DNA of 64,000 nt from the NCBI GenBank assembly GCA_030685065.1, contig JAUXQH010000095.1:206855-270854 (forward strand), read 5' to 3'. Source of the DNA: Pseudomonadota bacterium (lineage in GTDB: Bacteria > Myxococcota_A > UBA796 > SXON01). Made by a program: the position numbers and the translations under genes. This document shows positions 11,332-29,040 of this stretch, piece after piece; the first letter of the stretch is position 1; each line of letters begins with the position of its first letter. The notes beneath the pieces were generated by a model. That model worked only from the letters and a program-made list of their open reading frames with translations, had not been told where the DNA came from and searched no databases.

Positions 11332-13448
11332 TCATCGTTATCGCGGGAATGCTCGCGCACGCGCAGAGCTACTCGATGCCGAGCACCGAGGACGACGTCC
11401 ACTACTTCGGCGTGTCGGCCTACAAGGACGAGGGCAGCCGCGACTGGAACTGCGGGGGCAACTACTACTCGGGCCACAACGGCACCGACATGGCGATCGG
11501 CGGCTGGGGCAACATGTCGGCGGGCGTGGACGTCGTCGCGGCGGCCGACGGCACGGTGATCTCGGCGCACGACGGCGAGTCCGACACCTGCTCCACGGGG
11601 ACCTGCGGCACCGCGAACTCGGTGATCCTCGCGCACGCGGACGGGCGGCGCACGCTGTACTGGCACTTCCGCAAGTGGACGGTCACGGTGGGCGCTGGCG
11701 ACACCGTGACGTGCGGCCAGAAGCTCGGCGAGGTCGGCTCCTCGGGCAACTCCACGGGGCCGCACCTGCACTTCGAGCCGCGAACCAGCGGAAACGTGCC
11801 GGTCGAGCCGTTCGCGGGCGGCTGCGGCGCGTCGTCCACCAGCTGGGTGGGCCAGGGGGGCTACAACGGCCTGCCGGATCTCGTGTGCGGCAGCGTGGAC
11901 GCCGACGGCGACGGCTACACCACCACCGATGACTGCAACGACGGCGACGCGAGCGTGCATCCCGGCGCGGCCGAGTATTGTGACGGTGCCGATGACGACT
12001 GCGACGGCACCGTGGACGAGGATGACGCGGTCGACGCCCCAACCTGGTACCGCGACGCCGACGGGGACGGCTACGGCGACCCGGGCGCGGCGCGCCGTGC
12101 GTGTACGCAACCGTCCGGCTACCTCGCCGACAACACCGACTGCGACGACACCAACCGGCTGACCTACCCGGGCGCGTTCGAGCTGTGCGACGGCGAGGAC
12201 AACGACTGCGAAGGGGACATCGACGAGGGCTACGAGGTCGACGGTGACGGCTACCGCACGTGCGACGGCGACTGCGACGACCTCGATCCGACCCGCCACC
12301 CCGGCGCGGACGAGACGATCGACGGCATCGACCAGGACTGCGACTGGGCGGTGGACGACGGAACGGCCGTGTTCGACGACGACAGCGACGGCTGGACCGA
12401 GGTGTCCGGCGACTGCGACGACGCCGACAGCTTCACGTTCCCCGCCGCACCCGAGCAACCGGACGGTGGCGACGACGACTGCGACGGAGCGATCGACGAG
12501 GGCACGACCGCCTCGGACGACGACCGCGACGGCTGGACCGAGCTCGCCGGGGACTGTGACGACTTCGACGCGACGCGCTTCCCCGGCGCGCACGAGACCG
12601 CGGACGGCTTCGACGGCGACTGCGACGGCCTCGTGGACGACGGCTCGACCCTCGGGGACGACGACGGCGACAGCTTCACCTCCGTGGGTGGCGACTGCGA
12701 CGACACCAACCGCCAGGCGTTTCCCGGCGCGCCGGAGATCGCGGACGGCGCGGACAACGACTGTGATGGCCGCATCGACAACGGCACGCGGGTAGCGGAC
12801 GACGACGACGACGGCTTCGCGGAGCAGGACGGGGACTGCGACGACGCCGATCCGGGCGTGTTCCCGCTCGCCCAGGAGGTCGTCAACGGTCGCGACGACG
12901 ACTGCAATTTCCTCGTCGACGACCGCACCGACGTCTACGACGACGACCATGACGGCTGGACCGAGGACGCCGGCGACTGCGACGACGCCGCGCCCCTCAC
13001 CTTCCCGGGCGCCCTCGAACGCATCGACGGTCACGACGAAGACTGCAACGTGCTCGTGGACGACGGAACGGCCGCGTTCGACGACGATGGGGACGGCTAC
13101 ACCGAAGCCGGGCACGATTGCGACGACCTCCGCGCGGAGGCCTGGCCCGGGGCGCCCGAGCTCGAGAACGGCCGCGACGACGACTGCGACGCGATCGTGG
13201 ACAACCACACCCTCGGCTCCGACGACGACCAGGACGGCTGGACCGAGCGCGAGGGGGATTGTGACGACGGCAACGCCCACGCGTTCCCGGGCGCGCTGGA
13301 GACGGTGGACGGACGGGACGGTGACTGCGACGGCGTGCAGGAGATCGCGGAGGGCTGGGGCGCCGCCGTCTGCGGGACGAGCGGCGCGCCGACCTGGCTC
13401 GGCCTGACGGTGGCGCTCCTGCTGGTGCGGCGGCGGCGCTCGAGCTGA
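11328..13448 (+). CDS. secreted M23 (LytM) peptidase with ten MopuT-type DxDxDG/CDD repeats and MYXO-CTERM-like tail
   Basis: HNGTDMAIGG and GPHLHFE Zn ligands; repeats like DDDxDGWTExxGDCDDxDxxxFPGAxExxDGxDxDCDGxVDDGT; C-term AAVCGTSGAPTWLGLTVALLLVRRRRSS. Confidence 0.88.
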   Translation: MIIVIAGMLAHAQSYSMPSTEDDVHYFGVSAYKDEGSRDWNCGGNYYSGHNGTDMAIGGWGNMSAGVDVVAAADGTVISAHDGESDTCSTGTCGTANSVILAHADGRRTLYWHFRKWTVTVGAGDTVTCGQKLGEVGSSGNSTGPHLHFEPRTSGNVPVEPFAGGCGASSTSWVGQGGYNGLPDLVCGSVDADGDGYTTTDDCNDGDASVHPGAAEYCDGADDDCDGTVDEDDAVDAPTWYRDADGDGYGDPGAARRACTQPSGYLADNTDCDDTNRLTYPGAFELCDGEDNDCEGDIDEGYEVDGDGYRTCDGDCDDLDPTRHPGADETIDGIDQDCDWAVDDGTAVFDDDSDGWTEVSGDCDDADSFTFPAAPEQPDGGDDDCDGAIDEGTTASDDDRDGWTELAGDCDDFDATRFPGAHETADGFDGDCDGLVDDGSTLGDDDGDSFTSVGGDCDDTNRQAFPGAPEIADGADNDCDGRIDNGTRVADDDDDGFAEQDGDCDDADPGVFPLAQEVVNGRDDDCNFLVDDRTDVYDDDHDGWTEDAGDCDDAAPLTFPGALERIDGHDEDCNVLVDDGTAAFDDDGDGYTEAGHDCDDLRAEAWPGAPELENGRDDDCDAIVDNHTLGSDDDQDGWTEREGDCDDGNAHAFPGALETVDGRDGDCDGVQEIAEGWGAAVCGTSGAPTWLGLTVALLLVRRRRSS
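11898..13350 (+). repeat. protein-level tandem repeat array (10 units; most are 47 aa) within M23 peptidase
   Basis: Direct reading of translation; acidic calcium-binding-like loops with paired Cys. Confidence 0.85.
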
Positions 13449-22270: not shown

Positions 22271-22305
22271 CTGCACTCGAAGCGGCGCACGTGCGCGGGG
22301 GAGAT

Positions 22306-22396
22306 GGCCGGGCACCCCCATGCCTCGGGACGACGACACCGTTGCTACCTTTCGGTCCTGGCGGGGTTCACGGCGCCCAATCATGGGGACCCGACC
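22306..22396 (-). ncRNA. ffs: bacterial (4.5S-like) signal recognition particle RNA
   Basis: Minus strand GGTCGGGTCCCCATG...GTGAACCCCGCCAGGaCCGAAAGGTAGCAACGGTG...CATGGGGGTGCCCGGCC: conserved SRP domain IV-like core and pairing 5'/3' ends; no plausible CDS. Confidence 0.85.
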
Positions 22397-22425
22397 ATCA
22401 CCGCCGCGCACGCGCGAACGATAGA

Positions 22426-22513
22426 TGGCGGAGAGGGCGGGGTTCGAACCCGCGGTACCTTTCGATACACACGATTTCCAGTCGTGCACCTTCGACCACT
22501 CGGTCACCTCTCC
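22426..22513 (-). tRNA. tRNA-Ser (GGA), CCA encoded
   Basis: Minus strand GGAGAGGTGACCGAGTGGTCGAAGG...CTGGAAA anticodon loop, long variable arm, GGTTCGAACC, CTCTCCGCCA. Confidence 0.95.
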
Positions 22514-22520
22514 TAGAAAA

Positions 22521-22608
22521 TGGCGGAGAGGGTGGGATTTGAACCCACGGTAAGTTGCCCTACAATAGATTTCGAGTCTATCGCCTTCGACCACTCGGCC
22601 ACCTCTCC
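22521..22608 (-). tRNA. tRNA-Ser (CGA), CCA encoded
   Basis: Minus strand GGAGAGGTGGCCGAGTGGTCGAAGG...CTCGAAA anticodon loop, GGTTCAAATCC, CTCTCCGCCA. Confidence 0.95.
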
Positions 22609-27795: not shown

Positions 27796-27931
27796 GCGCC
27801 CAGGTATCCCAGGACGGAGAAAACAGGTCGGCCGAAGAGCGCGAGGCCCGCGGTGCCCGTCGCCCCGAGCGGCGCCGACCGCGGGCCCGGGGGGCTCTCC
27901 CGGGCGGCGAACGATGCGGTACTTTGTGCAC

Positions 27932-28504
27932 ATGCCCGCTTCTCGTCGCCACCACCGCTTCTCGCTCGAGCAGTACCTCGAGTTCGAGTTCGATCACGTG
28001 GAGAAGTTCGAGTTCGTCGACGGGGAGATCGTCGCGATGGCAGGCGCGTCTCCGCAGCACAACGTCGTGGTGTCGAACATCACCGCGGCGCTGCACGGCC
28101 TCTTCGCTGGCCGCGGCCGGGTGCTCGGGTCACAGCAGCGCATCGCGACCGCCGATGGCCTTCACACCTACCCGGACGTGCTCGTGGTCTGCGGGAAGAT
28201 GGTGTTGGTGCAGTACAAATCTACCCACACGCTCCACTTTCCGTCGATGCTGGTGGAGGTCCTCTCGCCTTCCACCCGGGACTACGACCTCGGCGAAAAG
28301 TTGGAGCGCTACCAGACCATCCCCACCTTGCAGGACGTGCTCCTGATCGAGGCCGATCGTCCGGACGTGCGGCACGTCCGCCGCACGGCAGAGGGCTGGG
28401 AGACGCGCCGCTTCAGGGCCATCGAGGACGTGATCGATCTCGCCGGGGTCACGCTTCCGCTCGCGGTCATCTACGCGGACGTGCCCGAGGCCGACCTGGG
28501 CTGA
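27932..28504 (+). CDS. Uma2/DUF820 family nuclease-fold protein
   Basis: RFSLEQYLEFEFDHVEKFEFVDGEIVAMAGASPQHN, YPDVLVVCGK, LVEVLSPSTRDYD; alternative start 27914. Confidence 0.85.
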   Translation: MPASRRHHRFSLEQYLEFEFDHVEKFEFVDGEIVAMAGASPQHNVVVSNITAALHGLFAGRGRVLGSQQRIATADGLHTYPDVLVVCGKMVLVQYKSTHTLHFPSMLVEVLSPSTRDYDLGEKLERYQTIPTLQDVLLIEADRPDVRHVRRTAEGWETRRFRAIEDVIDLAGVTLPLAVIYADVPEADLG

Positions 28505-28544
28505 CCGAGGTGTCCGCCGCCCCCGCGGCAGGGAGGCCGGAAGG

Positions 28545-28687
28545 CGCCACGGGCACGCGACAATCCCAGGCCGAAGGCCATTCCCAGCGCGCCATGCCCG
28601 TGGCGGTCGGCCCGCACGAAGCGGGCCGACGGAGCGGCCCCGCCGCGACCCTGCAGGACACCCGCCGGCGGCCGCCCCGGCCGCCGG
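28545..28687. other. block of three consecutive perfect hairpins, candidate structured RNA
   Basis: CGCCACGGGCA..TGCCCGTGGCG (28545-28605), GTCGGCCCGC-ACGAA-GCGGGCCGAC (28606-28630), CCGGCGGCC-GCCCC-GGCCGCCGG (28665-28687). Confidence 0.6.
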
Positions 28688-28693
28688 GCCGCC

Positions 28694-28720
28694 CACGGTC
28701 ACGGTCACGGTCACGGTCAC
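28694..28720. repeat. (CACGGT)x4 hexamer microsatellite
   Basis: cacggtcacggtcacggtcacggtcac. Confidence 0.95.
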
Positions 28721-28826
28721 CCCACCCTCCAGACTCACGCTCCCGTCCTGATCCTGGAGGGCCCAACGCGTACCCAGCCGCCGCGAAGGATCGGGCTGGC
28801 CCGCCTTGCAGCCGGGTCCGCCGGTG

Positions 28827-28898
28827 GAGCCCGAAGGGCTCGCGGAGTCGGCGTGCGCGAGACTCGCAGCGCCCGGCCCGGCAAGGGCCGGAGCCGAC
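28827..28898. other. second structured block: GAA-loop hairpin plus possible three-way junction
   Basis: GAGCCC-GAA-GGGCTC (28827-28841); GTCGGC 28847-28852 pairs GCCGAC 28893-28898 enclosing GCGAGACTCGC and CCGGCCC-GGCAA-GGGCCGG (28873-28891). Confidence 0.5.
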
Positions 28899-29040
28899 GT
28901 AGCCAGCCCCCGGAGGTGAGCGCGAAGCGAGCCGTGAGGGGGGCCCCCCGGGGGGGGACCGGCGGGGGCCCCGGCTGCGGTTCTGGCGGGCCGGCCCGAT
29001 CCTCTCGCGCCAAGATGAAGGAGCGCGATAACAGGCCCCG

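Follow-up and report, generated by a model that had tools for sequence, protein, structure and literature searches.

A gap filled by dispersed repeats

The window, the whole stretch of 64,000 nucleotides that we analysed, contains at 28505-29040 a gap of 536 bp between a Uma2 gene (PF05685, 27914-28504) and an AAA ATPase gene (PF00004, 29041-30519), both correctly recognized in an earlier note made from the sequence alone. The GC content is 78% in the gap versus 71% in the window. We compared the gap by blastn with the window's own genome (G000) and its relatives, which are draft assemblies, mostly metagenome-assembled. The partial matches sort into separate blocks: A at about 28511-28698, B at about 28822-28950, and C, consisting of two arms that enclose B. 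The gap is a mosaic of at least three dispersed repeat families and not a single structured RNA. Of the options in the earlier note, the repeat-type element is the one that applies. The features are as follows.

27914-28504, + strand: Uma2 gene (PF05685); the orthologous G001 junction lacks both this gene and the repeats
28511-28698, + strand: family A, about 180 bp, a closing helix around P1, P2 and P3, then P4 (match of 118 bits to covariance model R1, covariation, copies)
28532-28544 with 28650-28662, + strand: closing helix of A (covariation-supported consensus fold)
28545-28605, + strand: hairpin P1 of A, 11 bp, with an inner GGCC-GAA-GGCC at 28569-28579 (sequence, inverted repeats, covariation)
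28606-28630, + strand: hairpin P2 of A, 10 bp, directly abutting P1 (inverted repeats, covariation)
28634-28646, + strand: hairpin P3 of A, GCGGC-CCC-GCCGC (sequence; helix 6 in the covariation count)
28665-28687, + strand: 3' hairpin P4 of A, 10 bp (inverted repeats, covariation)
28694-28720, no strand assigned: 4.5 tandem copies of CACGGT, which overlap A at its end (tandem-repeat search)
28787-28827, no strand assigned: left arm of palindrome C (long inverted repeat, other C copies, joined-arm fold)
28828-28943, + strand: family B, ends approximate, at the tip of C (match of 120 bits to covariance model R2, covariation, nesting)
28827-28841, + strand: 5' hairpin of B (sequence, covariation)
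28847-28898, + strand: three-way junction of B (covariation)
about 28906-28944, + strand: second, long 3' hairpin of B (covariation-supported consensus fold)
28944-29003, no strand assigned: right arm of palindrome C, boundary approximate (long inverted repeat, C copies, joined-arm fold)

An inverted-repeat search recovered every hairpin listed in the earlier note at its place. The perfect 11 bp stem (28545-28555 with 28595-28605) indeed abuts a perfect 10 bp stem (28606-28615 with 28621-28630), and the two are P1 and P2 of A. The GAGCCC-GAA-GGGCTC hairpin can be read from the sequence at 28827-28841. One small detail needed correction: the stem at 28665-28687 is correctly located but measures 10 bp with a 3-nt loop rather than 9 bp. 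The CACGGT repeat runs to 4.5 copies. A long-range inverted repeat that had been overlooked (28787-28805 with 28985-29003, 19 bp, 95% complementary) belongs to C. Folding places the gap beyond the range of dinucleotide shuffles on both strands (z -5.05 on the + strand and -2.95 on the - strand, with 0 of 100 shuffles as good), while 28699-28786, between A and C, shows no clear structure when folded alone. Neither A nor B had any match in an Rfam search at gathering and relaxed thresholds. Taken together, what the earlier note observed is confirmed and its interpretation is only partly supported.

In G001, the orthologous junction between gshB and the AAA gene spans about 360 bp and contains no Uma2, A, B or C, and other relatives with this gene pair have short junctions. 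None of the AAA orthologues examined has Uma2 beside it. A link between Uma2 and the repeats was rejected, as G000 has only three Uma2 matches, none tied to A or B.

Elsewhere in the window, two adjacent tRNA genes lie beside a bacterial small SRP RNA (22302-22608, - strand, Rfam), and a diverged tandem repeat with units of 141/282 bp occupies 12263-13105. The consensus of this repeat looks like coding sequence, presumably for DGDCDD-type acidic cysteine repeats.

Covariation supports branched folds in A and B

We gathered 16 copies of A and 10 copies of B by sequence similarity, aligned them on sequence alone and then folded the consensus. In A, 95.3% of the paired cells are occupied by pairs, against 83.1% in shuffled alignments and 39-48% with slid structures; the corresponding values for B are 94.9%, 80.1% and 34-47%. 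The covariation score is 0.278 for A (0.070 shuffled) and 0.336 for B (0.083 shuffled). The shuffled controls ignore the relatedness of the copies, which the slid-structure controls preserve, and 0 of 500 shuffles attained any of the observed pairing or covariation values. Compensatory pairing is strong in both families, and the covariation among homologues supports the three-way junction at 28847-28898 that the earlier note had put forward as possible.

The pair changes are almost only complete swaps and wobble pairs are few: 59 cells changed on both sides versus only a handful on one side in A, and 43 versus 3 in B. Such sparseness of wobbles would be unusual for RNA evolving by single steps; the covariation therefore reveals a constraint on hairpins that is not necessarily a constraint on RNA. 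A constraint on DNA hairpins fits the substitution pattern at least as well as RNA does, and the high GC content may contribute to the sparseness. On model-fitted alignments, G-U exceeds A-C in A (21 versus 6) and in B (53 versus 9), favouring the + strand. Fold energies favour the + strand for B and the - strand for A, the latter opposite to the wobble count.

Family A accumulates downstream of genes

Covariance model R1 identifies at least 15 copies of A in G000 and, in its congeners, at least 14 (G002) and at least 12 (G001), with sparse copies in another two genomes of the family; the counts for both A and B are minima, obtained from the fraction of first-look candidates that was scored. 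We called the genes around A with a codon-usage caller trained on these genomes (coding density 0.89). Of 36 copies of A, 27 have a convergent neighbouring gene on their 3' side (distance up to 166 nt, p 0.004); read as its reverse complement, A thus comes after a stop codon in most cases. The gene 5' of A has a random orientation (17 versus 15). A accumulates on the downstream side of genes with a preferred orientation, and it may influence the 3' ends of mRNA there.

At every junction comparable between species, A is absent from the matching position. The exact ends of A are approximate, and the junctions compared included no clean base-level empty site. The flanks of A are no more complementary than the random control, giving no sign of A inside palindromes. 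One intergenic expansion of 1.8 kb in G000 (L175, 3730-5567) holds one strong and one weak copy of A; G001 has about 106 bp there.

Family B lies at or beside palindrome tips

Covariance model R2 finds B in 16 of the 22 genomes of the family, with up to 20 copies in one genome, and in 0 of 49 other genomes of the same class. A DNA-pattern scan of named genomes detected B in genomes assembled from metagenomes, with the labels uncultured proteobacterium, Deltaproteobacteria or Sandaracinus, along with a few further records that bear implausible organism labels. Judging from the labels of the carrying genomes, the host group is probably Myxococcota. The viral contigs, plasmids and phages that we searched contained no copies of A or B. 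Several repeat copies lie at contig ends, presumably because near-identical repeats break the assembly. B-like units also form short tandem arrays in G010 (L155, 5526-6030) and G021 (L167, 8-304), an arrangement suggestive of amplification in situ.

The window copy of B occupies the tip of C. By blastn, G000 also contains C at other places without B, and the arms of C joined in silico with B omitted fold into one long hairpin (z -7.4). Each of the 11 genus copies of B that we examined has a palindrome arm on either side. The arms belong to palindrome D in eight copies (one orientation in six and the opposite one in two), to C in two, the window copy included, and to another palindrome in one. 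D and C were recognized solely from motifs and blast hits. These recurring arms are the basis for placing B in palindromes, since a test of flank complementarity is weak at this GC content and its random control is partly invalid.

A methyltransferase gene illustrates the nesting. In G001 and G002 it carries a short palindrome D (GGGGCG..CCCCGCAACGCCCC, coding strand), and in G000 that same D is split at its tip by B. An intergenic D-type palindrome without B (CGGGCGTTGCGGGG..CCCCGCCCCAAGAA) lies at position 945 of the window, on the - strand. The linker of PrmC holds both B and D in G001 (L046, 8866-10026) and apparently D alone in the G000 orthologue (L236); from these sequences, the linker looks like a hotspot for palindrome insertion.

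B lies in frame within at least three conserved genes, encoding PrmC (G001), the methyltransferase (G000) and a HEAT-repeat protein (G002), whose orthologues in the sister genomes are without B. A fourth open reading frame with an in-frame copy is found at L033. An RHS gene of G021 has three near-identical copies of B and a broken reading frame. Read on the reverse strand, the B copies inside genes of the genus contain no stop codon, which would allow such copies to survive. The empty sites could be aligned and gave no exact junction; no target-site duplication is readable, because the insertion sites are themselves palindromes. B is demonstrably mobile, and it has moved recently enough that sister species differ in whether a given gene site is filled or empty.

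Mobile hairpins or structured RNA

A and B are separate families, dispersed, lineage-restricted and conserved in their base pairs, with positions that differ between sister species. We consider it likely that non-autonomous mobile elements have piled up in the gap, and that they need their folded form, a hairpin or a multibranch structure, both to move and to persist.

The strong covariation, the long-range closing helix and the junctions would also suit functional structured ncRNAs, either multi-copy sRNAs or mRNA 3' elements, selected for an RNA function and dispersed only secondarily. The unpaired stretches conserved in the alignments, the orientation bias of A just 3' of genes and the excess of G-U over A-C speak for such a role. 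However, sister species, where compared, do not share positions, B occurs within coding genes and within other repeats, nearly all pair changes are two-sided with few wobbles, and the strand preference of A by fold energy contradicts its wobble count. On this sequence evidence, selection for RNA function seems unlikely to be the explanation.

The long 5' leader suggested in the earlier note, or another structured cis-regulator serving the AAA (Ycf46-like) gene, would agree with the location of the gap upstream of the start codon and with an AAGGAG at about 29017. Yet in sister species and other genomes of the family, the AAA orthologues have a short, divergent gshB junction or other upstream sequence without this region, and the same elements adjoin unrelated genes. 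A conserved leader was rejected on these grounds, and we regard any leader as very improbable. Chance folding of GC-rich intergenic DNA could appeal to the composition of the gap and to the stretch at 28699-28786, which is not clearly structured alone, but it is hardly credible given the shuffle z-scores and the covariation in homologues, whose counts refute it.

For the mobile elements that we favour, a trans-acting enzyme would recognize the folded single strand and join it to the tips of extruded hairpins. By analogy with insertion sequences targeting REP hairpins and with HUH transposases, the likeliest route appears to be that a folded single strand is mobilized in trans and enters a hairpin that has been extruded. 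The enzyme genes present are single Y1 (RAYT-like) genes, a few IS110 and reverse transcriptases. Among the Y1, IS110 and reverse transcriptase loci checked, we found no transposase linked to A or B: the Y1_Tnp genes have neither repeat in the surrounding 1.5 kb or so, the IS110 loci of G000 and G002 have no A or B, and no insertion sequence with B-like ends was found. An association with RAYT, IS110 or reverse transcriptase was rejected, as none of these loci has A or B nearby. We give little credence to a bolder version, in which B (perhaps also A) would be an RNA-like element, possibly copied through RNA, that spreads as a folded single strand by means of a novel enzyme with insertion specific to the tips of extruded hairpins; in this version B would be a hyperparasite of palindromes.

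At least two of these repeat families are new to Rfam, and covariation backs their branched folds. In-frame palindromic insertion, best known from Rickettsia, is now seen in the large GC-rich genomes of uncultured bacteria, probably Myxococcota. The nesting of palindrome within palindrome offers a direct handle on the target choice of structure-dependent elements. The findings as a whole also call for caution, as strong intergenic covariation can mark mobile hairpins instead of regulatory RNA.

Comparison with known repeat systems

REP/BIME sequences associated with RAYT (GTAG- or CGTC-tagged) are dispersed palindromes located mostly downstream of genes, and some lie within genes (PMC3733652). 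A is likewise placed 3' of genes, as are REPs and some MITEs. Unlike REPs, which are single stem-loops of 20-40 bp, A and B are 115-190 bp long and have junctions, and neither of them borders a RAYT gene in these genomes; D and C are nearer to REPs in size. ISPsy8 enters the REP hairpin at its symmetry axis (PMC1525189), and HUH transposases recognize folded single strands (PMC3733652). B resembles the REP-targeting insertion sequences (ISPsy8, IS1397, IS621) in being inserted within a palindromic repeat, here D and C, but it is about 120 bp long and has no gene.

Bacterial MITEs, such as QMITE2 of Coxiella, are non-autonomous elements of 100-200 bp that form stem-loops and often lie in 3' untranslated regions (PMC10969869). 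A and B share with them a small size, the lack of coding sequence, multiple copies and mobility. Terminal inverted repeats bordered by target duplications are not clearly seen in A and B, and among the IS110, Y1 and reverse transcriptase loci no candidate parent insertion sequence emerged. They differ from IS110 bridge-RNA elements in having no linked DEDD transposase, and the resident IS110 loci of G000 and G002 are without A or B.

Rickettsia palindromic elements are palindromic repeats of about 100-150 bp that occur between genes and, as in-frame insertions, within unrelated protein genes (PMC10969869). B is similar in its in-frame insertion within unrelated genes (PrmC, methyltransferase, HEAT). 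Unlike them, it occurs in unrelated bacteria, has an 82% GC, branched and covarying fold, and lies inside other palindromes. We draw the parallel by analogy only. Size, branched fold and the absence of linkage to RAYT or a parent insertion sequence keep A and B out of the REP, MITE and Rickettsia families as defined. Our best reading is that A and B are new families that work like these three.
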